Of a DNA stretch of 38,895 nt, positions 8,037-31,017 are shown piece by piece; position 1 is the stretch's first letter; each line of letters starts with the position of its first letter. The notes beneath the pieces are model-generated. The model made no database searches and was not told the origin of the DNA. It was given only the letters and a program-made list of their open reading frames with translations. This DNA comes from a virus. The DNA is taken from IMG/VR virus record IMGVR_UViG_3300020205_003958, positions 1 to 38,895 of that record; one strand, written 5' to 3'. Position numbers and translations under genes: made by a program.

Positions 8037-9824
8037 ATGGCCAACACGAATTTTAACCTAGTTGGTTTAGATTTTAACTCTCTCAAAGATAATCTAAAAT
8101 CATTCTTAAAGAACAACACGCAGTTCAAAGATTTGGACTACGAGGGTTCAAACATTAATATATTGCTTGATGTCCTTGCGTATAACACATATCTCAATGG
8201 CTTTTACACAAACATGGTTGCTAGTGAGATGTTTTTGGATTCCGCGCAATTGCGTGATAGTGTCATTTCACATGCTAAAGAGTTGAATTACATTCCACGA
8301 TCATTTACATCTTCAAAAGCAACAATAACTGTTGACATAACACCGACATCTACTGTAACGTCTGTATTGATCCCCAAATATACTTCTTTCACTTCTAGAT
8401 CCGGATCAAACACATATACGTTTGCAACGTCCGATGCTGTTGTTCTTAACACTTCGAATGGCGGAGTGTTTTCTGCTACGCTTGATGTGTATGAAGGAGT
8501 TATTGCATCAGAGACGTTTGTTGTTAACTTATCCAACACGTCACAGAGATACGTGTTATCAAATCCAACAATTGATACTTCATCGTTGAACGTAACATTG
8601 TATGAGGATAATGGAGCGACAATTTTACCTTATACAAGAGCTGATCAGTTACTTGGCGTAAATGATACATCAAAAGCATTCTTCCTACAAGGTGCAGAGA
8701 ATCAACAATACGAAATTGTATTTGGAGACAATGTTTTTGGTAGAAAACCAAAAGACGGATCTTCTGTTGTTGTAAAGTATAGAGTGTCGTCAGGTGAGTT
8801 ATCGAACGGGTGTTACGAGTTTGCATCAGATGGATCAATAGACGGTCATCCAAATGTTCAAATAACAACAATCACATCTTCTCAAGGTGGTAGCGTTGCT
8901 GAGTCAATACAAGATATCAAATTTAATGCGCCTCGTCTTTTCCAAGCTCAGAACAGAGCAGTAACGGAATCAGACTATGAAGTGCTGCTGTTGAATCAAT
9001 TTGCTGATATTCAAGCAATAAGTGCATATGGTGGTGAAACAATATCCCCACCTCAATTCGGTAAAGTTTTCATTTCCGCCGACGTAGCAAACGCTGACGG
9101 GGCACCAGAATCTCGCAAAAAAGCATACTACGATTACATTATTCAAAAGACGCCAGCAACAATTGCTGTTGAATTTGTTGACCCTCAATTTCTTTATACA
9201 AAAGTTAACACAACAGTTTACTACGATGTCAATAATACGGTTAAATCAACTGCAGATATAGAAACAAGCACTAAGGCTGCAATTAGCCAATACAATAACG
9301 ATAGCCTTGGTAATTTTAAAAAGACATTGTATTTCAGTAAACTTGTCGAAATGATTGATGCAAGTGATAGTAGTATACTCAGCAACGATACATCTTTAAG
9401 TTTAGTATACAGACTATATCCTCAGACAAATACAGATATTAGTTATAGATTACAAGTAAACAATGAACTTCAAACAGAGACTGGTTTACGTCTTTCTGCT
9501 GATGAAAAACATTATGGTCACACGCTTACAAGCAGTGTGTTCACATACTTGGGATCTAGATGTGTATTAGTTGATGATACGCAAGGTATAGTTTATATTG
9601 CTGCAAAGCAGAGCGATAGAATTGAAGTCATTAAACCTATTGGTACGCTCAGCTACGTCGACGGAACCTTAATATTAGTCAACTTCAATGTATCTTCCTA
9701 TGAAGGAAATTATATTGAGTTAATATACAAAACAAAAACTAAAAATATTCTTGGATCAAAGAATGTTATACTTGCAATAGATCCTGTTGATGTTGAGGTA
9801 GTGGTTCAGGGTGTTAAGCAATGA
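8037..9824 (+). CDS. 6: gp6 baseplate wedge subunit (baseplate J-like)
   Basis: At 595 residues (T4 gp6: 660) it carries the gp6 N-terminus (FKDLDYEGSNINILLDVLAY, then NTYLNGFYTNMVASEMFLDS, about 30-70) and HAKELNYIPRS. The J-like core has IVFGDNVFGRKP near 228-240 and FQAQNRAVTESDYEVLL near 301-317, the family's most typical segment. gp6 dimers form the ring that fastens wedges together and changes shape when the tail contracts. Its last bases overlap the next start (GCAATGAAG), so translation is probably coupled to the gp7-like gene. The family call is firm. Confidence 0.93.
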   Translation: MANTNFNLVGLDFNSLKDNLKSFLKNNTQFKDLDYEGSNINILLDVLAYNTYLNGFYTNMVASEMFLDSAQLRDSVISHAKELNYIPRSFTSSKATITVDITPTSTVTSVLIPKYTSFTSRSGSNTYTFATSDAVVLNTSNGGVFSATLDVYEGVIASETFVVNLSNTSQRYVLSNPTIDTSSLNVTLYEDNGATILPYTRADQLLGVNDTSKAFFLQGAENQQYEIVFGDNVFGRKPKDGSSVVVKYRVSSGELSNGCYEFASDGSIDGHPNVQITTITSSQGGSVAESIQDIKFNAPRLFQAQNRAVTESDYEVLLLNQFADIQAISAYGGETISPPQFGKVFISADVANADGAPESRKKAYYDYIIQKTPATIAVEFVDPQFLYTKVNTTVYYDVNNTVKSTADIETSTKAAISQYNNDSLGNFKKTLYFSKLVEMIDASDSSILSNDTSLSLVYRLYPQTNTDISYRLQVNNELQTETGLRLSADEKHYGHTLTSSVFTYLGSRCVLVDDTQGIVYIAAKQSDRIEVIKPIGTLSYVDGTLILVNFNVSSYEGNYIELIYKTKTKNILGSKNVILAIDPVDVEVVVQGVKQ

Positions 9825-12800
9825 AGAATATTGAGAAGTTAATATCTCCATTAGTTCAGTCCCACTTTCCTGAATTCTACAAGGATGAGGGTCCACGTTT
9901 TGTAGATTTTGTTACGCAGTATTATAAGTGGATGGAGAGTAGTGATCAAGCAATATCGTGGTCACGCAATTTGTTTGATACAAGAGATATTGATAGGACA
10001 GCGCCGGAGTTTATTCAGTTTTATAAACAAAAATATCTAGGTGGAATACCTCTTGATACTGTGGCCAACACTCAAATGTTGGTAAAGCATTCGCATGATT
10101 TCTACAAATCCAAGGGTACCAATGAAAATATTGAGTTGGTTATTCAGGGTCTTTTTGATGAACAAGCATCTGTTTACCTACCAGGTACCGATATACTAAG
10201 AACCTCAGATGGCACTTGGGTGCGGCCAGTATACCTTGAATTATCCGTATCCGAACGTACAAAAACGTTTGTCGGTAAAGAGATTATAGGATCAAACAGT
10301 GGTGCCAAAGCTTTCTTGGAAAGTTTAGTTAGAAGAAGAATTGGAACAAAATTTATTGAAGTAGGTTACTTAAGTAACGTGCGTGGTGATTTTATAACAG
10401 GAGAACAAATAACAACTGTTGGTAACCAAATACTCGATGCAGCACCATCTGTAATTGGATCTATGACATCTTTGACTGTTGTAGAGGGAGGAGCCAATTT
10501 TAGTGTTGGTGATACTTTCAATGTTCAATCGGAAAACGGTAAACAGGGTGTTGCTCGTGTATCAGCAATTTCAAATGAAACAGGTAAAGTAAATTTTATT
10601 TTTATCGATGCTTTGAATAGTGGTGGATGGGGATATAGCACTGCACATGCCAATGTAATTATATCATCAAAAGTACTAACGCTGACTAATATTGGAAATG
10701 CAAACGGAAGTATTTCTGATTATCAACGTTTTGAGAGAGTGACACAGCAACTAGCAAATGTAAGTTATAATACAGCTCGAGGTAACAACGCTAACTTCAA
10801 TGTTGGTAATATTGTAGAGAATTTTAATCCTGATGGTACAGTCAATGCTAACGGTATTATTGTAGCTACATCAAAAACAACAGCTAATACAGGATATTTT
10901 ATAATTGCACCACAAACAGGTACGTTGAATGCAATCGATCTGACTTTCTCTGTTCGTGCCAATAATGCAGATACATCATACTTCAATGCTTCGCTAGTTG
11001 GTGATGTTATCCACAGCTTTACACGCAGTTTTTCTGGTGTATACACCGGGCTATATGCAGGATATTACACAGGACTTTTCACTGGAGCATATCTAGGAGC
11101 CTTTACTGGCGTGTATGCAAATAGCTACAGTCGTGAATGGACTGGTCAATACGCCCTGAATACGGCTCGCTCCTTTACAGGATATTATTCACAAGAATAT
11201 AGTGGTTTATTTACAGGAGTTTATACGGGTGAATACACGCGCGAGTTTTCTGGCATTTACTCAATTGGTTACAATTCACCTACTGGGTTATCTTTTTCTC
11301 GTGCCTATGCAACAAGAACTATTCCTAATCCATATGTAGGTACAGTTTATACCGGTCCAAGTTACTCTCAAGCCTACTCTCAGATAGGATTTACTGGCTC
11401 ATATGGTACAGCTTCTTTCACTGGTACTCCATTTCCATGGGGCAGTACTTCGTATGTTGGTGCATGGACGGGTAATTGGACAAAAACGTGGTCATCGGAA
11501 TACACAGGACAATTTACACATCAATACACTCGTACATCTGTAGGATCTTATACTGGGTATTTTAGTAGGGAATATTCGGGGTTGTGGACAGGAAGTTATA
11601 CGGCCATGTTCACCGGTGGCTACAACAATACATACACTGCAGAGTACACGGGTATATGGTCAGGTCTTATTTATAAATCTTATTCACAATCCTTCACTGG
11701 TGAATACTCTGGTCAGTGGACAGGATCCTATGTTGGTTACTTTACTAGTTACTTTACAGGCTCAACTTTAATTAATACCACAACACCGCATAATTTTAGC
11801 AACGGTAATCTTGTTCGTTATCATGTTAATCCTGGTAATACTCAAATTAGTCAATTAGTTGTTGGATCAGCATATTATGTTGTTAATGCAGTACCTGGTA
11901 CGACCACTCTTCAGTTGACAGATACGTTAAATGGACTACCAATTATTTTAACAAAAGGAAGTAATGAAACAGGTCATGTGTTGATTGAAACATTGGGAAC
12001 AGGTGTTATGATAACGTACAATGATCGTACAGCATCTGGTAATGTTGTGGGATCGAACACTTCAGCAGGCAACACTGGTTATCTTGGTGTCGCTGATTTA
12101 AATTCTAATGGATTTATTTCCACACCATATGCCAACATTGTTGGTTATCTTTCTAATACAACCGCTATTGTTGCAAACGTAAGTACGGGTACGGGAGCAG
12201 GATTTCAAATCAGCTTATTAACCGACACAGAAAATGTCTTTCTAACACCAGACTTTCTAAGTAGTAACAACACAGGAAACGTTGTATTCCACACTGTTCT
12301 CTTAAATGGCTTTAACGCCAATACCAATGCCAGTGGGTATGGAACAGATGATACTTTCAATGCTTCGACTAATGTGACTAGTGGTACAAGTGGTGACGGG
12401 GTTAAACTTCCTACATCTGTTGGATTCAACGCAAACTCAGGTGTTGCTAATACGACAGATATTATAACAACATCGACAGCTCACGTCTTTGGCAACAATG
12501 AGCAGGTAATTTATACCACACATCCATCAAATACTGTTATCAACGGATTGGCTAACAACACAACCTATTATGTAGTGAATGCCATTGCAGGTGGTACTGC
12601 TCTGCAACTTTCCATATCATCTGGTGGATCTCCAATTAATATAACAGCTAATTCTTCATCGGATGTTGCTGTGGGACACTTCCTTGCTCGTACGGGTACA
12701 ACTGGATCAAATAACACAATTGCATTTAGCAATGCCATTAGCTATGCTCCGAACACCGCTATTCGATATTATATCGATACTGGTAACACCGTCGTATCAG

Positions 12801-14089
12801 GATTAACAACAAACACGGTGTATTATGTTGATCAATCAAATGCTACTCACGTTGCTTTGAAAGCAACACCTTCTGGTTCACGAATTGCTCTAACTGCTGG
12901 CTTAGATCAGACAGGACACCATCTTGTTGGTCCATTGAGAATACTGTCAACAGGTGACATACAACACAAGGGTCTTGGTTTTGTTAAGTTTCCTGGTACA
13001 AACATGGATACAATTCTTCTCGATGCCTTACGTTTTGACGCAACAGTAATAGGATCAATTGCAGCTATTTCTGGTCTGAATCCTGGTGTCGATTACAACA
13101 TTGATCCTTTTGTCGTTGTCCATGACACATACGTTGCTGGTTATGATAAGCATGATTACCTGATGCAAATTAGCAATCCTTCTGGTGTGTTCTTAGAAGC
13201 TGAGCAAATACAACAGACGTATAGTTCTCCTGCCACACAGCTAACAGTTAATACTTTTTCTGGTACATATGCCAACGGAGTGTCAGCAACCACATTTGTA
13301 CAGGGTGAATTTGTTTATCAATCAAACTCGACAGCAAATGTTGGGGCATCAGGTTTTGTTCTCGAAGCGGGTATCTCTTTGGGATCAGGTACATTGAAAT
13401 TACGTGATGTTACAGGAGTCTTTGTTCCGACAATATCTACTACAACTTTAATAAAAGGATTGTCATCCGGTTCAACATCAAATGCGCAAGCTGTTGCTCT
13501 GACGACATTTGCTACTACGGCGCGTGCTCTTGTAAAGCCAGGATCTAATAACAGCGTGCTAAAGTTGAAGAGAATAAATTTAGAAAATACCTTTATACCG
13601 GGCTCGACAATAATTGGTCGTTCATCTGGTGTTACGGCAACGGTATCAACCATTGATCAAGATCTTACTACTATTCCTGTTGGTTTGAATGCAAATATTG
13701 TTGCAAATGTTCAGACAGCTAATAATGTCGTTACAAGACTAAATGTGTATGATTCTGGTTTCGGTTATGTCAATCGTGAAACAGTGACATTAACAAGAGA
13801 AGATTCGGATTACTCTGTAACAGCTATTGTTGAATTAGGTAAGCAAGGTGTAGGAGCAGGCTTTTTCTCATCCACACGTGGCTTCTTAGATTCGGATAAA
13901 AAACTGCAAGATAATGATTACTATCAAAATTATAGTTACGAGGTTCAAACCAAGATACCTTTTGATAAGTACTTTGAAGTTTTAAAGAAAGTCAGTCACG
14001 TTGCTGGTACAAAAGCTTTTGGCAAAGTTACATCTCTTTCATCAGTAAACATGCAAATGACCATCATAAATAGTATCGATCTTTCCTAA
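9821..14089 (+). CDS. gp7-like giant baseplate protein with YTG repeats
   Basis: Its place between gp6 and gp8 is that of T4 gp7 (1032 residues), and the N-terminus (FPEFYKDEGPRFVDFVTQYY and onward) matches the large structural protein at this site in marine T4-like phages. At 1422 residues it is much longer. Residues about 400-646 are an unusual aromatic array of [Y/F/W]-T/S-G steps every 4-8 residues (VYTGLYAGYYTGLFTGAY). Three beta modules of about 75 residues follow (near 650-725, 885-955, 965-1040), each with a YYV core, an NT-[IV] element upstream and a TGH-type end. The C-terminus (from about 1260) returns to baseplate-like sequence. It overlaps gp6 by four bases. The gp7 name is mainly positional; that it is a virion structural protein is very likely. 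Confidence 0.75.
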   Translation: MKNIEKLISPLVQSHFPEFYKDEGPRFVDFVTQYYKWMESSDQAISWSRNLFDTRDIDRTAPEFIQFYKQKYLGGIPLDTVANTQMLVKHSHDFYKSKGTNENIELVIQGLFDEQASVYLPGTDILRTSDGTWVRPVYLELSVSERTKTFVGKEIIGSNSGAKAFLESLVRRRIGTKFIEVGYLSNVRGDFITGEQITTVGNQILDAAPSVIGSMTSLTVVEGGANFSVGDTFNVQSENGKQGVARVSAISNETGKVNFIFIDALNSGGWGYSTAHANVIISSKVLTLTNIGNANGSISDYQRFERVTQQLANVSYNTARGNNANFNVGNIVENFNPDGTVNANGIIVATSKTTANTGYFIIAPQTGTLNAIDLTFSVRANNADTSYFNASLVGDVIHSFTRSFSGVYTGLYAGYYTGLFTGAYLGAFTGVYANSYSREWTGQYALNTARSFTGYYSQEYSGLFTGVYTGEYTREFSGIYSIGYNSPTGLSFSRAYATRTIPNPYVGTVYTGPSYSQAYSQIGFTGSYGTASFTGTPFPWGSTSYVGAWTGNWTKTWSSEYTGQFTHQYTRTSVGSYTGYFSREYSGLWTGSYTAMFTGGYNNTYTAEYTGIWSGLIYKSYSQSFTGEYSGQWTGSYVGYFTSYFTGSTLINTTTPHNFSNGNLVRYHVNPGNTQISQLVVGSAYYVVNAVPGTTTLQLTDTLNGLPIILTKGSNETGHVLIETLGTGVMITYNDRTASGNVVGSNTSAGNTGYLGVADLNSNGFISTPYANIVGYLSNTTAIVANVSTGTGAGFQISLLTDTENVFLTPDFLSSNNTGNVVFHTVLLNGFNANTNASGYGTDDTFNASTNVTSGTSGDGVKLPTSVGFNANSGVANTTDIITTSTAHVFGNNEQVIYTTHPSNTVINGLANNTTYYVVNAIAGGTALQLSISSGGSPINITANSSSDVAVGHFLARTGTTGSNNTIAFSNAISYAPNTAIRYYIDTGNTVVSGLTTNTVYYVDQSNATHVALKATPSGSRIALTAGLDQTGHHLVGPLRILSTGDIQHKGLGFVKFPGTNMDTILLDALRFDATVIGSIAAISGLNPGVDYNIDPFVVVHDTYVAGYDKHDYLMQISNPSGVFLEAEQIQQTYSSPATQLTVNTFSGTYANGVSATTFVQGEFVYQSNSTANVGASGFVLEAGISLGSGTLKLRDVTGVFVPTISTTTLIKGLSSGSTSNAQAVALTTFATTARALVKPGSNNSVLKLKRINLENTFIPGSTIIGRSSGVTATVSTIDQDLTTIPVGLNANIVANVQTANNVVTRLNVYDSGFGYVNRETVTLTREDSDYSVTAIVELGKQGVGAGFFSSTRGFLDSDKKLQDNDYYQNYSYEVQTKIPFDKYFEVLKKVSHVAGTKAFGKVTSLSSVNMQMTIINSIDLS
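11018..11760 (+). repeat. Aromatic YTG repeat array inside the gp7-like gene
   Basis: About 245 codons encode a degenerate array whose unit is [FYW]-[TS]-G-x-[YFW], with variants such as YSREWTGQY, YTREFSGIY and YTGYFSREYSG. The DNA copies have diverged, so the array is maintained at protein level. The same composition recurs in the protein at 25673-27484. Confidence 0.85.
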
Positions 14090-22567: not shown

Positions 22568-22791
22568 TTACTCCTACTGACGATAAAAGATATGTGAAGG
22601 ATTGGGTCAGTACCGCTATCCTAAATATAGATGATGAGGGATATAGATCCTTTAAAATTGAACGTGACCGCCTTTTACAGCAAGCAAAAACACAAAATGA
22701 AGTTGTAGAAATTAGGCGAGAGCTTGATGATATTAAACAACTACTAAAACAACTAATTAACGGAAATACAAATGGCGAGAGCAATATCTAA
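22564..22791 (+). CDS. Small coiled-coil protein
   Basis: This 75-residue gene is translationally coupled at both ends. Its ATG overlaps the upstream TGA (ATGA), and its last 20 bases overlap the next gene in another frame. Residues about 30-66 form a charged helix (IERDRLLQQAKTQNEVVEIR, RELDDIKQLLKQLI) with heptad-like hydrophobic spacing, so a coiled coil is likely. The N-terminus includes YVKDWVSTAILNIDDEGY. I do not recognise a family. A similarly sized coiled-coil protein occurs at 32887-33114, also directly before fibre-type genes, so both may be adaptors or assembly factors (inference). Confidence 0.7.
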   Translation: MITPTDDKRYVKDWVSTAILNIDDEGYRSFKIERDRLLQQAKTQNEVVEIRRELDDIKQLLKQLINGNTNGESNI

Positions 22792-24673
22792 TGTTGTCAT
22801 AGCAACTGATTCTTTTGCAACGTGGGTTGGTGTCACTAATATAATGGCTGACACCTTTACCAACTTTGCATTAACAGCTAACAGTTCCCCATATGGTGCC
22901 AATGTCTCTGGTAATTCACAGTTGATTGGTATTTTCAATGCCAATACAGTTGCAGCAGGAACCGAGCTGCGTGGTGGAACAATTAATGCTTCTGCTAATC
23001 TTGTAATAACATCTAATGCTATATTTTCAGGACCAACTATAAATGCAACAAGCAACGTGGTGGTTATATCTTCGTTTGCATATTTGAATACAGCAGCATT
23101 TTACGTAGTCGGTGGTGTTGCTAATGTTACATCGAATGTAAGGATTACAGCAGCGGCAGTTCTAATCAATACATACTCTACTACCCTTAATGGTATTCAA
23201 GTTGATCTAGGATCCAATGTCTCTATTATTAATAGTAATACACAGGTAAACAGTGCAATTGTTCGAATCACTGGTGGGCTGGCAAATGTTACATCAAACG
23301 TCTCTATTACTAATGCAAACGTCAATATCAATGCAACTGCTTTTGGTTTGCAGAGTGTCTCTACTGTTACAGGTAACACGACATTAAAAGCAAATAGCTC
23401 ACTAACAAGCGTCCAGTTGTTAGGTGACGCTACAACAAGTAATTTAACGATATCTGTAAACACAGCAACTGTTACTGGTAACGTTGCAATGTCAAACACA
23501 TTAACTGTTACGGGTTTAACGACACTTAACGGTAACGTTGTTGGTCCTACAGCTAACCTTTCCACTGCTGTTAACGTTGGCGCAAACGTCAACATCAACA
23601 CGACCGCATATGCTGTTGGTAATGCATCTGGTAATGTAACAATAAATCAAAGTGGTATTGTTGTAGGTAATACAACAGTTGGTACGGTCAATGCGTTTGC
23701 GTTTAATATTGGTGCCAATGTGAATGTAAGTACAACGCAGCTTAATGTTGGTAACGATACAGTCAATGCTGTATTAACTCAGACATCACTCGTTGTTGGT
23801 AACAGCACAGTCAACACTTCTATAACACCAACAGCAATAACAACGACAGCGACCGTTGCGACAGGCAACACGACTATTACTGGTTTTGTAAATTCTTCAT
23901 CGTACGGAACATTTAACGGTACGGTTAATGCAACAGCTATTAACGTTGGTGCTAATGTTAATTTGACTACAACATCGTATGCTGTTGGTAATGCATCTGG
24001 TAATGTAACGATAAATCAGAGTGGTATTGTTGTCGGTAATACGACAGTCGGAACCGTTAACACATTTGCTTTGAATGTTGGCGCCAATGTAAATGTTACG
24101 ACATCACAGCTAAAAGTCGGTAACAATACAGTTAATGCAGTACATACACAAACATCGTTTATTGTTGGCAACACGACTGTCAATGCTTCAATTAATTCGA
24201 CAGCGTTAACGGTTGGAAATTCAACAGTCAATACATCAATTACATCCAGCACTATAAGTATTGGTTCAGGTGGCACGCTTACTGTAACAGGTAATACGAC
24301 TTATGGAGCAAGTGGAGACTTTGTCCAAGCTGTTGTTGTAAATACAAATATTGGTGTTGCAAACACGTTAGTTGGTGATCCAGCAGCATTCACGGTTGTT
24401 AATTTGTTCAGTTTTCCTATTGGAACATATAAGGGAGCGAAGATAACAGCAAAGATAACAGATGCAGCAGCATCAAACAATCAAGTTCAAGAACTGATTC
24501 TTGCACAGAATGGAACAGATGTTGTCATGACCGTATACGGTACAGTATCATCTCCAGCTACAGCAAACTTGGGAGTGTTTTCTGGCTTAATAAATACGAC
24601 ACACGTTGCTGTTGGTTTCCAGCAAACCAAAGCAAGTTCGAACGTTAAAGTGTTCGCATTGTTAATAAAGTAA
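22772..24673 (+). CDS. Fibre-like beta-repeat protein
   Basis: This 633-residue protein is made mostly of short beta repeats rich in Asn, Thr, Val and Gly. Frequent units are VGNSTVNTSI, GANVN-[IV] and TVTGN. Residues about 270-330 are repeated near 393-453 (offset 123 residues, 369 bp). Residues about 510-633 form a different, non-repetitive C-terminal domain (FVQAVVVNTNIGVANTLVGD start; PIGTYKGAKITAKITDAAAS; ending VFALLIK), probably a globular head or tip. The N-terminus (residues 1-60) is non-repetitive and could attach to the baseplate. Start: ACGGAAATACAA before ATG, overlapping the preceding gene. A tail fibre or spike is the best reading; no enzyme motif is visible. Confidence 0.7.
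   Translation: MARAISNVVIATDSFATWVGVTNIMADTFTNFALTANSSPYGANVSGNSQLIGIFNANTVAAGTELRGGTINASANLVITSNAIFSGPTINATSNVVVISSFAYLNTAAFYVVGGVANVTSNVRITAAAVLINTYSTTLNGIQVDLGSNVSIINSNTQVNSAIVRITGGLANVTSNVSITNANVNINATAFGLQSVSTVTGNTTLKANSSLTSVQLLGDATTSNLTISVNTATVTGNVAMSNTLTVTGLTTLNGNVVGPTANLSTAVNVGANVNINTTAYAVGNASGNVTINQSGIVVGNTTVGTVNAFAFNIGANVNVSTTQLNVGNDTVNAVLTQTSLVVGNSTVNTSITPTAITTTATVATGNTTITGFVNSSSYGTFNGTVNATAINVGANVNLTTTSYAVGNASGNVTINQSGIVVGNTTVGTVNTFALNVGANVNVTTSQLKVGNNTVNAVHTQTSFIVGNTTVNASINSTALTVGNSTVNTSITSSTISIGSGGTLTVTGNTTYGASGDFVQAVVVNTNIGVANTLVGDPAAFTVVNLFSFPIGTYKGAKITAKITDAAASNNQVQELILAQNGTDVVMTVYGTVSSPATANLGVFSGLINTTHVAVGFQQTKASSNVKVFALLIK
23578..24134 (+). repeat. Direct repeat, two copies 369 bp apart
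   Basis: Bases about 23578-23765 and 23947-24134 encode nearly the same 62-residue stretch (SGNVTINQSGIVVGNTTVGT in both). The DNA differs mainly at third positions, so it is an older in-frame duplication inside the fibre-like gene. Confidence 0.75.
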
Positions 24674-25672: not shown

Positions 25673-27484
25673 ATGGGAAGACCGCTTAAGATAAAATATT
25701 CAGGAGCGACGGCGATAGGTGTACAGGAGATGTCAGATGCAGACATCTCCGATTTAATATTGCCTCTCGTTGTTGCAAACTGGTCAGGCCTGTTAGAAGC
25801 ATCTGGTCCAAGTGGTAGCGTTGTTAGGTCATATGGTACAACTCCTCCTAGCTATAACTTCATCAGTCGTGGCGTTGGTTACAATACAGAAACAGACTCA
25901 ATAGGAACGCATCCTCGAACAACGTCTACCACAACGACGTACACTGTTGTTCAAAACGAATTCGATCCTGGTTTATCAGCAACAGCTGGTGTTCGTCCGA
26001 TTCAGCAATCGTTGGTGGGTAGTGAAGTAAAGATATCATCAATGTCCAATCAGGACATAATTAATGATGTAATGCCTGTTATTGTAAACAGTATTTCAAC
26101 AGGTGGTCAAGGCGCTTACTATCTTGGATTGACATCTGCTGGTGCACCGGCAACAGGCACATGGGTTGCGGTATCCAATCTAATAGATAACTATTATAAT
26201 TCAAGTAACGTATATCAAAGTATACAGTATACTCTTTGGTTGCGTACAAGTGGAGGATCGGTCGGTACAATTCGTCCATTGACAATAACAAATACCGGTG
26301 GTGGTGAGACACGTCTTACCGAAATGACAAATAGTGAAATTGAACAGCTAGCATCATTTGTTGGTGAGTATATTCGTACAACAGGATTAGGCAAATATCA
26401 GTTTGCTACTTCTGCTCCTGGTTACGGTACGTGGGTTAGTAGAGGTTCATTTACAGATACAGTAAATAATCTTGCAAATGTACCATACACTGGTTATTAC
26501 ACTGGGCAGTTTACAGGTACGTTTACAGGAAACTGGACAAGTACTTATAATGGTTATTACACAGGAAACTGGACAGGAGTTTACACTGGTTCTTACACTG
26601 GTGTGTGGAGCAAAGAATATACTGGTTATTATCAGAGAACATGGACAGGGTATTATCAGAGAACATGGACAGGGTATTATCAAAGAACATGGGCAGGGTA
26701 CTATCAAAGACAGTGGACAGGCGTGTGGGGTGGTAATGTCGGAAAATCGTATACAGGTAACTGGGCTGCTGGTCCAGTACGGTTCGAGTATTACACAGGA
26801 TCATATGTAACCACCAGAAGCACGGTATATACTCCAAACTACCAAAGAGATAGAGTTACTTTTTTTGGTCCGCAAAGTTACCATCTTCAACTTTATTACT
26901 CTGGTTATCTTGCTGATGGTAATTATACTGGTTACTATCAAAGACAAAGCAACCCATCTGCTGGTGTTTATTATGTTTCTTCTTGGTCAAGAACTTCGAC
27001 AATCCCAGTGTGGTTTACATCAATTGGAACTGTTACCTACACAGGTTACTACGGTGGTACGGGTGGTGCCGGAACAAACTGGACAAGATTGTACACAGGC
27101 GCAATAAACAAAAGCCGTTCAGCAAGTTTTACTTCTAACATAGCAACAGCGTACACAGGTCTTTATACTCGTAATTATACTAGAGACCGTTTTGTTAACT
27201 ATACAAGAGACAACTATCAAAATTATACAAGAGACAACTATCAAAATTATACAAGAGATAACTATCAAAATTATACAGGTGTTTATACTGGAAACTTCAC
27301 AGGTGTGTGGAACAGACAATGGACGGGTTACTATCCAAGAGAATATACCGGTTACTATAACAGAGAATATGTAGGATACTATAATAACTCGTTTTCTCGC
27401 GAATTCTCTGGAGTGTATAATGGAATGACAGTTCAGGCATCAACAACGACTACTACATACTATTTGTGGGTAAGGACAGCTTAA
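25673..27484 (+). CDS. Virion protein with triplicated head and YTG repeat tail
   Basis: This is 603 residues. The first part contains three related units beginning near residues 20, 124 and 218 (EMSDADISDLILPLV, SMSNQDIINDVMPVIV, EMTNSEIEQLASFVGEY), each followed by a beta segment. Residues about 272-362 and 408-577 are aromatic YTG repeats (YTGYYTGQFTGTFTGNWT; YYQRTWTG repeated four times; NYTRDNYQ repeated three times). The composition is extremely rich in Tyr, Trp, Thr, Gly and Asn with few Lys. The C-terminus leaves the repeat (TTTTYYLWVRTA). Its ATG follows the previous stop by one base. Similar arrays occur in the gp7-like protein here, so both are probably on the virion. I know of no assigned function. 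Confidence 0.75.
   Translation: MGRPLKIKYSGATAIGVQEMSDADISDLILPLVVANWSGLLEASGPSGSVVRSYGTTPPSYNFISRGVGYNTETDSIGTHPRTTSTTTTYTVVQNEFDPGLSATAGVRPIQQSLVGSEVKISSMSNQDIINDVMPVIVNSISTGGQGAYYLGLTSAGAPATGTWVAVSNLIDNYYNSSNVYQSIQYTLWLRTSGGSVGTIRPLTITNTGGGETRLTEMTNSEIEQLASFVGEYIRTTGLGKYQFATSAPGYGTWVSRGSFTDTVNNLANVPYTGYYTGQFTGTFTGNWTSTYNGYYTGNWTGVYTGSYTGVWSKEYTGYYQRTWTGYYQRTWTGYYQRTWAGYYQRQWTGVWGGNVGKSYTGNWAAGPVRFEYYTGSYVTTRSTVYTPNYQRDRVTFFGPQSYHLQLYYSGYLADGNYTGYYQRQSNPSAGVYYVSSWSRTSTIPVWFTSIGTVTYTGYYGGTGGAGTNWTRLYTGAINKSRSASFTSNIATAYTGLYTRNYTRDRFVNYTRDNYQNYTRDNYQNYTRDNYQNYTGVYTGNFTGVWNRQWTGYYPREYTGYYNREYVGYYNNSFSREFSGVYNGMTVQASTTTTTYYLWVRTA
26627..26722 (+). repeat. Tandem 24-bp repeat, four copies
   Basis: Four 24-bp units encode YYQRTWTG with small changes in the last two copies (YYQRTWAG, YYQRQWTG). 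The first two copies are identical in DNA, which points to recent slippage or unequal recombination. Confidence 0.9.
27201..27272 (+). repeat. Tandem 24-bp repeat, three copies
   Basis: Three 24-bp units encode the NYTRDNYQ pattern; copies one and two are identical and the third differs by one base (gagac to gagat). It is a second, independent expansion in the same gene. Confidence 0.9.
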
Positions 27485-27509: not shown

Positions 27510-27968
27510 ATGAAAAGAACTATTGTAAATCCACATTGGATTAATAACGCACGAACAATACTTACTGCAGATTTTCAGTATGAGGATGGAAGAGTCCTTA
27601 CCGCAACTATTTCAGAAACAGAGACCACTAATCCAGATTTGATTGAAATTAGACAAAAATTTACTGATGAACAACTTGAGCAAAACACTCTAAGGAAGAT
27701 TAAAAGTCTAGCAGATCAAAGAGCAAAAGAAAATGATATGAAGGAAGCTCAAGCTCTCCGTAAGACTCAAGAAGAGCTGTTTGCTGCTAAATTAAAAATA
27801 TTTGAGGTTGATGCAATAAAAACTTCAACAAACAGACCGTTGAAATCAAAAATTCGCAAATCTAAAAGTGATATAGAGGCCATGGCGTGGGCTGTTGCTT
27901 TAATGCTAGAAGAATTTAAAAACGAAACTGTTGATCTCCCACAATCGGATACAACCGAAGGGGAATAG
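27510..27968 (+). CDS. Small helical protein of unknown function
   Basis: A 152-residue protein with a strong ribosome site (GAGGT, six bases before the ATG). Residues 1-45 look like a small beta domain (NPHWINNARTILTADFQYED, then GRVLTATISE). Residues about 55-110 are a charged helix (FTDEQLEQNTLRKIKSLADQ and RAKENDMKEAQALRKTQEEL), likely coiled coil. The C-terminus is acidic and Thr-rich (QSDTTEGE). I do not recognise the family. It lies at the boundary between fibre genes and the enzyme island and could be a chaperone or adaptor for the preceding protein (inference only). Confidence 0.65.
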   Translation: MKRTIVNPHWINNARTILTADFQYEDGRVLTATISETETTNPDLIEIRQKFTDEQLEQNTLRKIKSLADQRAKENDMKEAQALRKTQEELFAAKLKIFEVDAIKTSTNRPLKSKIRKSKSDIEAMAWAVALMLEEFKNETVDLPQSDTTEGE

Positions 27969-27970
27969 AA

Positions 27971-28702
27971 TTGACACTTGATAATGGTTTTTTGATTGTA
28001 GCTTCAATAACAAAAGAATATGTCCTCACAGCAAATTTCTGTGCTAATAGCATAAAAGATAACTATCCTGATGCTCACATAACACTGTACACGACAAAGG
28101 ATCTTTTATCTTATGTTGATAGCAGTGCGTTTGATCTTGTTATAAGTGATGATGTTCCCAGCCACGTGAGAACAAAATTATACGCTCTAAGCAAGACACC
28201 ATACACCAATCTTACTGCGTATATCGACGCTGATATGGAGTGTATGCATACAGATGTATCCACAATATGGGAGCAAATATCCGAAGATGTGGATATATTA
28301 ATTACGAGGATTCGGCCTTACAACGGCAAACTTTCAAAATGGAAAAATGGTGAGCTTATACATCATTGTGGTTTTTTTATATACAGAAACAACCCCCATA
28401 CCATTGCATTTATGGAAAAGTGGTGGAACGACTACCAGTTACAAAGAAGTGAAAAGTGGCCCTATCAAGAAGAGGAATATCCTCAAGGGCTACAACAATG
28501 GGATCAATTTACTTTTTGGAAATTGTTGAACCTTGATAAGATGGAAGTTAACGTCAAATTCATGAATGACGATGCTAGATGGAATTTTGTAAATGGGTAT
28601 AAGCCTAGTGAGACAAACAGTCCAATAATTTTCTGGCACCATACTGTACCATCAAAACATACAAATATAGGCTTAGGAAAAGACGACAATGCTAGAAATT
28701 AA
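27971..28702 (+). CDS. Glycosyltransferase, GT-A fold with DxD
   Basis: This is a 243-residue enzyme with the layout of nucleotide-sugar transferases: FLIVASITKEYVLTANFCAN at the N-terminus, then an acceptor-side strand, and the metal-binding D86-A87-D88 in AYIDADMECMHTDVS. A HHCGFFIYRNN segment follows near 130-140, and a late FWHHTVPSKHTN segment could hold a catalytic or phosphate-binding His. A GT8-like or related capsular-type family fits. The start is taken as TTG at 27971, with GGGGAATAG upstream; no ATG lies close to it. It overlaps the next gene by 14 bases. Which sugar and acceptor are used cannot be read. A fibre or virion glycan is possible. Confidence 0.75.
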   Translation: MTLDNGFLIVASITKEYVLTANFCANSIKDNYPDAHITLYTTKDLLSYVDSSAFDLVISDDVPSHVRTKLYALSKTPYTNLTAYIDADMECMHTDVSTIWEQISEDVDILITRIRPYNGKLSKWKNGELIHHCGFFIYRNNPHTIAFMEKWWNDYQLQRSEKWPYQEEEYPQGLQQWDQFTFWKLLNLDKMEVNVKFMNDDARWNFVNGYKPSETNSPIIFWHHTVPSKHTNIGLGKDDNARN

Positions 28703-29321
28703 AATACAAAATAAAGAACTGAAAGAAATCTTAGATAATTTTCTTGTTGTTTTATTGAACGCTGACAGATCAAATTATCCATATGATGGAAGTTTAGGTA
28801 AGGGTGGTACTGTTGAACCAGAGTATGCGTGTGGTGAAGAATATTTATCACTGCAACAAAGTAAAAAAGTAGATGGTTTTCCGGAAAAGACACACGGTAT
28901 AGATTTAATGAGATTTGTTCCACCACAAATGTCGCTACGAGAAGCTCTCTTAGTTTTAGATCAACGTCTTTTGACTTGGTCTGGATCAAGAAATAATGCT
29001 GTCAAAATGTTATATCCAAAAGGCGGCTACATGGGCTGGCATCACAATGCAAATGCATCAGGATACAACATTCTTCTTTCCTGGTCGCAAGAAGGTAAAG
29101 GCTTTTTCAGATACCAGGATCCAATCACGAAAGAAATCGTTACAATGCATGATTCGCCTGGGTGGACGTGTAAGGTTGGATATTACGGTGCATGGCATGA
29201 GTCATCAAAAATATACTGGCACTGTGCAAGCGCTGAACATGAAGAACGTTTCACATTGGGATACATCATTCCACATGAAGGGATGTGGCGCGATATGTGT
29301 GAGGATATTCAATCGCCATAA
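28689..29321 (+). CDS. 2OG/Fe(II) oxygenase-like protein
   Basis: This 210-residue protein belongs, by pattern, to a phage family related to prolyl-hydroxylase type 2-oxoglutarate oxygenases. Key segments are YPKGGYMGWHHNANASGYN (about 109-127), GKGFFRYQDP, DSPGWTCKVGYYGAWH and HCASAEHEERFTLGYI. H178 and R187 fit the distal iron ligand and the 2OG-binding Arg. The proximal HxD motif is replaced by H118-H-N120, so the acidic ligand is missing and activity is uncertain. It overlaps the preceding glycosyltransferase by 14 bases and converges with the next gene, overlapping its 3' end by 13 bases. Hydroxylation or another modification of a fibre or host molecule is a guess. Confidence 0.66.
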   Translation: MLEIKIQNKELKEILDNFLVVLLNADRSNYPYDGSLGKGGTVEPEYACGEEYLSLQQSKKVDGFPEKTHGIDLMRFVPPQMSLREALLVLDQRLLTWSGSRNNAVKMLYPKGGYMGWHHNANASGYNILLSWSQEGKGFFRYQDPITKEIVTMHDSPGWTCKVGYYGAWHESSKIYWHCASAEHEERFTLGYIIPHEGMWRDMCEDIQSP

Positions 29322-30049
29322 TATTGTCTATAGGAATTATAATCTTTTTCTGTAGTGGGACCATTGAGCAGTGCTACAGGAATTTTTTTAATAATATCGA
29401 CAAACTTACTAGGTCTGTAACCCTGATGTACAGGATCATGGATTTTATTTTCATTATAGTCTACACCAAATTTATGAGAATAAAACTTTCGTGGTGGAAA
29501 GTATTGTATATCAATCCCTATTGACTCCTTTTCATAGAAAAGAAAAGAATCCATACCCCAATGATATCTGCTCATGAACATTTCAGAATCTTTGGAGATA
29601 TGATCCCATATAGCTGTTGTCTTTGGCGAGGTCTCCCATATCATACAGCTACTATTGAAGGGGTGATGCCAAACAGGGAATCCAGGAGGATGCCTCTTCC
29701 TCCACACAGCATCTATAAGTGTCAGATCTCCTTTTGCTGAATCAATAATATCATCGATATTAAATTTGATAATTAAATCCACATCAAAGTACAACCGCCT
29801 GCCTGGTAAAAGTTGTTGATCAAAAAGCGGACTAAACATCACTAACTTGTTGTAGTAGACAACGTCAAAATTGTAATTGATAAATTTAATAGCGGTAACT
29901 TCGGGTCTTAATCCGACTGGATCATCTGTGTAACAAAAGAATTTAAAAGGTGTTGTTATATTTCTACAACACATGATATATAAGTTATTGACCATCTCGC
30001 TACTATACTTGGGGCCAATTTTGACGGATAAAATACTTAAAGGCTGCAT
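29309..30049 (-). CDS. Glycosyltransferase-like protein with DVD motif
   Basis: Minus-strand gene of 246 residues from the ATG at 30049. A longer frame to a TTG at 30142 exists, but the preceding 31 residues are not typical of the family. Features are LSILSVKIGPKYSSEMVNNL at the N-terminus, FKFFCYTDDPVGL (about 36-47), and LYFDVDLIIKFNIDDI with D89-V90-D91 as the metal-binding DxD. A DSFLFYEKE segment and GYRP lie later. It resembles GT-A type transferases seen in marine phages, which often lie near fibre genes. It is the only minus-strand gene in this part of the window and is divergent from the methyltransferase-like gene, with start codons one base apart. Confidence 0.7.
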   Translation of the reverse strand: MQPLSILSVKIGPKYSSEMVNNLYIMCCRNITTPFKFFCYTDDPVGLRPEVTAIKFINYNFDVVYYNKLVMFSPLFDQQLLPGRRLYFDVDLIIKFNIDDIIDSAKGDLTLIDAVWRKRHPPGFPVWHHPFNSSCMIWETSPKTTAIWDHISKDSEMFMSRYHWGMDSFLFYEKESIGIDIQYFPPRKFYSHKFGVDYNENKIHDPVHQGYRPSKFVDIIKKIPVALLNGPTTEKDYNSYRQYYGD

Positions 30050-30050
30050 A

Positions 30051-30626
30051 ATGTATGAATACCTGACTTTCTTATCTGCTGTTCTCCGTTCAGGAGTCAA
30101 TGTTGGTGATATAGCTGATTCGATCAGCAAGACACAATACAATTCAAAAAAATGGTTGATGGAAATTCTAGCAAAGCAAGATTTTCCTTCAAATCCAACA
30201 ATACTTATATTGGGTGGGTGGTATGGTAGCTACCTAATTCCGTTCCTCCAAGAATCTTTTGTACCAAATCACATTTATCACAATGACAAAAATCCTTCCG
30301 TTATTCAAACAGCAGAAATACTACACCGACGAAATAACATATCCTTTCATAGTTTTGATGCAACGCAGCATGTGGAAAAATTTCAGGTGGATATTTTAAT
30401 AAACACTTCATGTGAGCATATGGTTTGTATAGGAGACCATCTTGTAGATAACCCCAATTGTTTGTATGTGTTACAAAGCTGTGATAACGAAAACGACCCA
30501 GGTCATATCAATACCTCTAAAGATACAAATGAGTTTGTTGAAAAAACAGGCCTAACATCAATTGCTTTTCGAGGTCGCCTATCACTTGGGCATAAGAACC
30601 GGTTTATGGTAATTGGTCGTAAGTGA
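30051..30626 (+). CDS. SAM-dependent methyltransferase-like protein
   Basis: This is 191 residues from the ATG at 30051, chosen over an upstream in-frame ATG at 29973 because it has AAAGG about 7 bases before it and the longer form would run over the start of the opposite gene. Class I methyltransferase features are I-L-I-L-G-G-W-Y-G-S at 51-60 (motif I), IYHNDKNP with D79 at the end of strand 2, FHSFDATQ with D103, and VDILINTSCEHM near 113-124 (motif IV position). The substrate is unknown. It closes the enzyme island. Weak similarity means a Rossmann protein of other function remains possible. Confidence 0.68.
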   Translation: MYEYLTFLSAVLRSGVNVGDIADSISKTQYNSKKWLMEILAKQDFPSNPTILILGGWYGSYLIPFLQESFVPNHIYHNDKNPSVIQTAEILHRRNNISFHSFDATQHVEKFQVDILINTSCEHMVCIGDHLVDNPNCLYVLQSCDNENDPGHINTSKDTNEFVEKTGLTSIAFRGRLSLGHKNRFMVIGRK

Positions 30627-30687: not shown

Positions 30688-31017
30688 ATGGCGATCAAAG
30701 CAAATCTTATTATCGATCAAGGAACCGATTATTCAACATCTATCAACTTAACGGATGATGATGGGAACGTAATCAACCTTTCCAATTACACGGCAAATGG
30801 CCAAATTAGAAAGACCTATAGCTCGTCGAATGCTGTAACTTTTGGTATTACGCTAGAATCCGGAACCGGGGTGGTTCTGCTAGCTTTAACAGATACGCAG
30901 ACAGCAAATATGGTAGCAGGTCGTTACGTGTATGACGTGGTATTGACAGATAATGCAAATGTTACATCAAGAATTGTTGAGGGTATTGTTACTGTAACAC
31001 CAAGAGTAACGAGATGA
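30688..31017 (+). CDS. Small Ig-like virion protein
   Basis: A 109-residue beta-sandwich type protein: IIDQGTDYSTSINLTDDDGN at the N-terminus, YTANGQIRKTYSSSNAV, then LESGTGVVLLALTDTQTANM and GRYVYDVVLTDN, ending in GIVTVTPRVTR. This is the layout of small phage proteins (BppU-like N-terminal or Ig-like) that lie just before receptor-binding genes. It is the first gene after the late promoter. Its stop overlaps the next start (ATGA). Its role as an adaptor between baseplate and fibre is inferred. Confidence 0.7.
   Translation: MAIKANLIIDQGTDYSTSINLTDDDGNVINLSNYTANGQIRKTYSSSNAVTFGITLESGTGVVLLALTDTQTANMVAGRYVYDVVLTDNANVTSRIVEGIVTVTPRVTR

Follow-up and report, generated by a model that had tools for sequence, protein, structure and literature searches.

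The stretch of viral DNA analyzed here (the window) comprises the 38,895 nucleotides of the IMG/VR record IMGVR_UViG_3300020205_003958. At positions 9821..14089, its plus strand carries a gene for a protein of 1422 amino acids that is flanked by gp6-like and gp8-like genes in the order gp25-gp6-gp7-gp8. Both this gene order and the sequence match of the conserved part of the protein (PHROG 17744, E 6e-161; Pfam PF23786, E 1.8e-7) identify it as a gp7-like baseplate wedge protein. An earlier note on this DNA had reported an aromatic repeat domain at positions 11018-11760, and we found this domain in the reading frame 9821..14089 at residues 400-646 (nt 11018-11758). It is an array of [Y/F/W]-[T/S]-G-x units with a period of four residues (aa 400-647; window 11018-11761) that is composed of an N-terminal arm of strict period 4 (about aa 400-487; 11018..11281), a central irregular tip (aa 488-544; 11282..11452), and a C-terminal arm of period 4 (about aa 545-647; 11453..11761), all encoded on the plus strand.

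Tyr, Phe, and Trp account for 62 of the 247 residues of the array (aa 400-646), and 38 of the 61 gaps from one aromatic residue to the next measure exactly four. The autocorrelation of the aromatic residues peaks at each multiple of four (0.62, 0.53, and 0.55 at lags 4, 8, and 12). The claim that an aromatic residue follows almost every four positions thus holds for both arms, but not for the irregular middle (aa 488-544), which the earlier note does not mention. The [Y/F/W]-[T/S]-G steps themselves are real: the motif occurs 25 times in the array, compared to 2.7 +/- 1.6 times (maximum 11) when the same residues were shuffled 10,000 times; the remaining 1175 residues of the protein contain it just once. 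As had been stated, the domain is nearly devoid of Lys, with two such residues. It possesses six Pro residues, five within aa 488-544 and the sixth at position 487, and a single His among the 191 residues of the arms. Since Tandem Repeats Finder detected no tandem repeat in the DNA of the array, the latter is not a recent simple-repeat expansion, and its pattern is maintained at the protein level. A phmmer search of the array against the PDB gave no match. Past the insert, the gp7-like protein contains a 'TTTxHxFxNGNxVxY'-like domain in at least two copies (11770-12000 and 12430-12700), and stretches of its C-terminal type match other loci near the fibre gene (L089, L116, L167, L218). The gp5-like hub protein of the same phage (6848-7597) is just 249 amino acids long and seemingly lacks a lysozyme domain.

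The gp7 array is present in the window and in near relatives from IMG/VR (L008, L009, L010, L011, L101). It is cleanly missing, with the flanks aligned, from the gp7 proteins of L013 and L014, whose flanks are 55-63% identical, and from those of phages phiM12 and Cr30. These alignments characterize the array as a clean insertion that is found so far in one gp7 clade only, and they bear out the view that it is not a known gp7 feature. Among the carriers, identity over the whole domain is 47-49%, compared to 74-84% in the flanks, and nonsynonymous divergence is about 0.46 in the array versus 0.11-0.19 in the flanks; as synonymous sites are saturated, we claim no selection ratio. The changes are unevenly distributed: in comparison with L008, an aromatic residue stays aromatic at 57 of 62 positions and Gly is kept at 31 of 37, while just 17 of the 76 other non-Ser/Thr residues are retained. 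The aromatic spacing is hence conserved in relatives and, as judged from these substitutions, appears to be under purifying selection. We had supposed the tip to be more conserved than the arms, but this proved wrong (0.51-0.54 against 0.43-0.51).

A second array of this type is located in a fibre-like protein of 603 amino acids (25673..27484, plus strand) that belongs to a family with the signature 'PLKI...LQEMTDxEI'. Residues 1-271 (25673..26485) form three tandem related domains; the array spans about aa 272-582 (26486..27418) and is followed by the closing strand of domain 3 (TTTTTYYLWVRTA; 27419..27481). When the array is removed, repeat 3 aligns with repeat 2 (hhalign probability 99.2, E 5.5e-20) down to the last strand, which indicates that the array interrupts domain 3 in its last loop; the gp7 array is likewise a loop-type insert. 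In the homologue from L178, AF2 models the three-domain region with pLDDT values mostly above 90. As the earlier note had suggested, comparable repeats exist in other phage structural proteins, both in the window itself and as a family in IMG/VR, where a scan for four successive array units yielded at least 120 stretches. Among the matches listed, the carriers mostly belong to one family of proteins that range from about 300 to over 3000 residues in length, start with '(M)xxPLKIK...LQEMTDxEI' and end with '...TVSTIKLWLRTA'. A few other proteins bear arrays, e.g., a tail-fibre-type protein in L090, L091, L093, and L103; there, the array is aromatic and Lys-rich, the gene directly precedes that of the array fibre, and the C-terminus of the protein is of the host-specificity type. 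Another repetitive protein of the window (22772-24673; 633 amino acids) consists of repeated N-T-T-V-N / G-N-T-T-V type motifs and gave no convincing family match.

Among 50,697 GenBank phage records, the array fibre family was found in C48C1 only, so that the family is common in the uncultured phages of IMG/VR and nearly absent from cultured phage genomes. The annotated baseplate-wedge genes and other tail genes of C48C1 that we checked contain no array; the gp7 insertion is therefore so far peculiar to the clade of the window. No model in Pfam or PHROGs covers the fibre-like array family, the arrays match no characterized repeat family, and a literature search on YTG-type repeats or C48C1 returned nothing relevant. 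Searching cellular genomes with the DNA pattern, we obtained at least 118 stretches, which are short simple repeats of 12 bases except for L337; in most of the 12-base repeats, the array frame is shorter than a competing reading frame. In L337, an array fibre gene sits on a contig that is assigned to a prokaryote genome. Since its neighbours are phage-type genes, this contig probably represents a phage within the genome assembly, and no cellular relatives of the array are found among the matches listed.

Downstream of the fibre gene, the plus strand encodes a small charged protein of 152 amino acids (27510..27968), a probable GT-A glycosyltransferase of 243 amino acids with an invariant D-x-D motif (27971..28702), a conserved protein of 210 amino acids that is tentatively a 2-oxoglutarate/Fe(II) oxygenase (28689..29321), a possible methyltransferase-like protein of 217 amino acids, so named from the appearance of its sequence (29973..30626; no family match), and a homologue of the L-shaped tail fibre assembly protein (30688..31017; PHROG 3304, E 4e-24). 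The last of these marks the tail-fibre module, and the same order is found in phage C48C1. In 139 scanned loci, most of which had been selected for the array, homologues of these genes (30688..31017 aside) are present in 78, 83, 78, and 38 loci, respectively. The methyltransferase-like reading frame overlaps one on the opposite strand (29309-30142, minus); its relatives are methyltransferase-like in many loci and often opposite in orientation to the fibre genes.

The genes at 27971-28702 and 28689-29321 follow the array fibre gene as a conserved pair. Residues D86 and D88 are invariant among 52 members of the first family, whose best Pfam matches are weak but consistent (GT8, E 4e-4; Nucleotid_trans, 6e-4; GT2, 2e-3), as is the best match of a profile search against the PDB (glycogenin-1, E 0.03); these features point to a probable GT-A glycosyltransferase that may be GT8-like. 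In the second family, H118, N120, H178, and R187 are invariant, and this H-x-N...H...R pattern is the basis for the tentative assignment as an oxygenase; the Pfam model 2OG-FeII_Oxy touches only one of 47 members (E 0.058), and neither PHROGs nor the PDB gave a match. Three places in the C48C1 genome (OQ984149) match the oxygenase-like protein and seemingly represent paralogues. Relatives of the glycosyltransferase-like gene number 574 in IMG/VR and one in GenBank phages, the latter again being in C48C1, as for the array family. When loci were selected by this gene alone, an array was located just upstream in all 71 that offered enough sequence (40 of the loci tested are distinct). The glycosyltransferase-like gene is thus strictly linked to the array fibre gene. 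Linkage this strict suggests the array protein as the substrate of the enzyme, although adjacency alone does not prove this, and it makes an array that carries sugar as likely as one that binds sugar.

A spacing of four places the aromatic residue and the Gly of each unit on one face of a beta-strand. How such strands pair can be read from the arrays of the fibre family, in which two extra residues interrupt the period at some points. These breaks lie mirror-symmetrically about the centre of the array, typically within about a residue, and A-K-T stands opposite T-S-A, P opposite T, and S-R-N opposite S-R-N. Of the mirror pairs of phase breaks, 62 of 65 are complementary (K/TS, P/T, R/R) according to classes that were defined after inspection of the data. 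The reverse order of breaks fits in 56 of 58 cases and the same-direction order in 10 of 58, compared to a mean of 29.6 and a maximum of 48 in 20,000 permutations, with the arrays in these tests being partly related by ancestry. Four arrays have break strings other than plain repeats, and these strings reverse-complement each other exactly (KKS/KSS, KKKS/KSSS, PPTTT/PPPTT, RPPTR/RPTTR), and in the array of L357 all 14 breaks are mirror-paired about the centre. A single register is shared by 53 of the 58 mirror pairs; at this register, an aromatic residue stands opposite a Gly 1362 times and opposite another aromatic residue 37 times, and a shift by two residues reverses these counts. In arrays of more than 600 residues, which contain too few breaks to judge, we found no significant mirror pairing. 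A tandem duplication of half an array was considered as the cause of the symmetry and was rejected on account of the poor fit of the same-direction order. The mirror-symmetric, complementary breaks instead indicate that the two halves of the fibre-family array are antiparallel partners in one long beta-hairpin, a conclusion of which we are highly confident. In the AF2 model of the L178 protein (37 sequences), the array is drawn, at low confidence, as two strands that are 53 and 62 residues long (235-287 and 290-351; pLDDT 50-63). The stacked ladder suggested by the earlier note comes close to this picture, in the form of a cross-strand checkerboard of aromatic residues and Gly in the related fibre family.

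The arms of the gp7 array possess no paired phase breaks, so that the case for a hairpin in this protein is made by the symmetry of its central break and by analogy. The sole long break is found 0.48-0.49 of the way along the array in each of the three distinct sequences and separates arms of 23-27 units (400-496/545-645 in the window; 400-500/538-646 in L008/L009). Prolines are nearly all central, with one (residue 621) inside an arm of the L008 protein, and the phases of the arms permit the same aromatic/Gly checkerboard as in the fibre family. By this analogy, the gp7 array probably folds as a hairpin in the manner of the fibre-family array. AF2 modelling of the gp7 region from four sequences gave a mean pLDDT of 30. 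Foldseek searches against the PDB and BFVD gave no match at E <= 0.001, and a search of 997 chains for a D10-type collar returned only T4 gp11 and a baseplate chain of phage KP1 with Z >=2 (weak matches; VIA Z 2.3-2.4 over 43-45 residues).

Taking these data together, we favour, with moderate confidence, a reading in which the gp7 insert is a beta-ribbon arm of the baseplate wedge with a tip, a role in adsorption, and probable glycosylation. The insert would extend from the wedge as a long two-stranded antiparallel ribbon, presumably exposed on the surface, with the small irregular tip at its end. Aromatic residues and glycines would lie on the same side of each strand, every aromatic opposite a glycine of the partner strand, so that one side of the ribbon would present the aromatic/Gly checkerboard and the other Thr/Ser and the variable residue. 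Judged by the residue count, an arm of about 24 tetrapeptide units would be roughly 30 nm long. The fibre-like family would use this module, too, as its arm, inserted there in a domain closed by the short C-terminal strand, and the gp7 arm would be a second, baseplate-borne copy of the device of the fibre. Its most likely role would be adsorption, with the tip, and possibly the ribbon face as well, touching the host surface. The array is probably modified on Thr/Ser or Tyr by the adjacent glycosyltransferase, perhaps together with the oxygenase-like enzyme.

The proposal of the earlier note of a regular beta-solenoid that possibly binds carbohydrate or a surface, read here as a coil with aromatic stacks that would bind carbohydrate on the host, is in keeping with the strict short period and the beta-prone composition, and aromatic ladders are known in sugar-binding proteins. 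A solenoid predicts a superperiod of the length of a coil, however, and the unit-to-unit autocorrelation of the arrays revealed no strong one. Moreover, the mirror-symmetric, reverse-complementary breaks of the fibre family require antiparallel halves and fit one long hairpin rather than a coil; we consequently regard the solenoid as highly improbable. Very improbable, too, is a flexible and largely disordered aromatic 'sticker' that makes multivalent weak contacts in the manner of Tyr/Gly-rich low-complexity domains, even though the Y/G/S/T composition is of low complexity and the pLDDT of both the gp7 region and the fibre array is low. Disordered stickers need neither position-wise conservation nor avoidance of Pro nor an exact register, whereas here aromatic residues and Gly are kept position by position while their neighbours change, Pro is almost missing from the arms, and the register in the related fibre family is exact.

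The chief rival to an arm that serves in adsorption is a docking function, in which the gp7 ribbon would mainly be an assembly element that makes no contact with the host and pairs with the fibre ribbon of the same phage, via edge-to-edge beta augmentation or packing of the aromatic faces, and thereby fastens the fibre to the baseplate or folds it back onto it. It counts against a free-standing arm that a lone ribbon of two strands, 30 nm long and aromatic on one face, would be expected to require a partner, gp7 being a monomer in T4 (PMC3004832); a one-faced ribbon would gain stability from such a partner. Both arrays occur together in the phage of the window and in IMGVR 3300021963_000250 and 3300042334_000799, the two other contigs long enough for both genes, and gp9, the protein to which the long fibres of T4 attach, is seated on a domain of gp7 (PMC3004832). 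Yet the array fibre is present in many phages and the gp7 insert is known from one clade only, so that such fibres do not need the insert, and we consider docking as the main function to be rather unlikely. The adsorption arm is the reading that we retain, with both its role in adsorption and its partner being presumed.

These arrays represent a family that is common in uncultured phages, nearly absent from cultured genomes, and without a database entry. A hairpin whose cross-strand pairs can be followed over tens of rungs would provide a beta-hairpin code readable from sequence, which would serve both structure prediction and protein design. The gp7 insert would show that a needle-type module has moved into a baseplate wedge, and sugar modification of these arrays by the product of a linked gene would make them an uncommon example of virion glycosylation in a bacteriophage. 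Only tentatively do we suggest a new class of appendages, i.e., portable aromatic/glycine beta-ribbons with a reverse-complementary code in their two arms that serve in fibres and, in this phage, in a baseplate wedge protein, and that are glycosylated by a dedicated phage glycosyltransferase accompanied by an oxygenase.

A known relative is a hypothetical protein of 3347 amino acids from C48C1 (OQ984149, Kyanoviridae), which belongs to the same family as the fibre-like protein of the window and shares with it a very long aromatic array of period 4 and the same downstream genes; its array is roughly ten times longer and Arg-rich. The VTG/LTG-type glycine repeats of cyanophage structural proteins (S-RIM2, SWRG_00083) gave a weak tblastn match (E 3e-3) that stems from a shared xTGN tetrapeptide; they are aliphatic, not aromatic, with only five [YFW][TSV]G motifs in 1912 residues. 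In Mimivirus, a hydroxylase and a glycosyltransferase act on viral collagen (PMC9546862, PMC5802723), and the system described here likewise combines a virus-encoded, repetitive, Gly-containing structural polypeptide with a glycosyltransferase and a possible 2-oxoglutarate oxygenase; it has no collagen repeat or sequence relation to that protein, and its modification is only proposed. The layout of the arrays finds a counterpart in the long tail fibre protein gp37 of T4, whose needle domain D11 is inserted in D10; residues 882-931 and 960-1009 form its stem arms, and the tip between them (932-959) is the probable site of receptor binding (PMC6957217). Like the needle of gp37, the arrays combine a pair of equally long stem arms with an irregular tip at the far end; in the fibre family, a small domain likewise takes up a long stretch and is closed by a short C-terminal segment, and in gp7, arms and tip follow from symmetry and the insertion is clean between conserved flanks. 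In contrast to gp37, to which we found no sequence similarity, the core proposed here is an aromatic/Gly checkerboard without His-x-His iron sites along the arrays (no unit position has His among its common residues), and the arms can exceed 150 residues. While gp37 is a trimer, gp7 of T4 is a monomer, present once per wedge at its periphery, that contacts gp10 and binds gp9 (PMC3004832), and the protein from the window resembles it in its conserved ends and in the position of its gene after those for gp25 and gp6 and before that for gp8. It is this combination of a gp37-like layout with a peripheral, monomeric wedge protein that leads us to propose the gp7 insert as a baseplate-borne arm.
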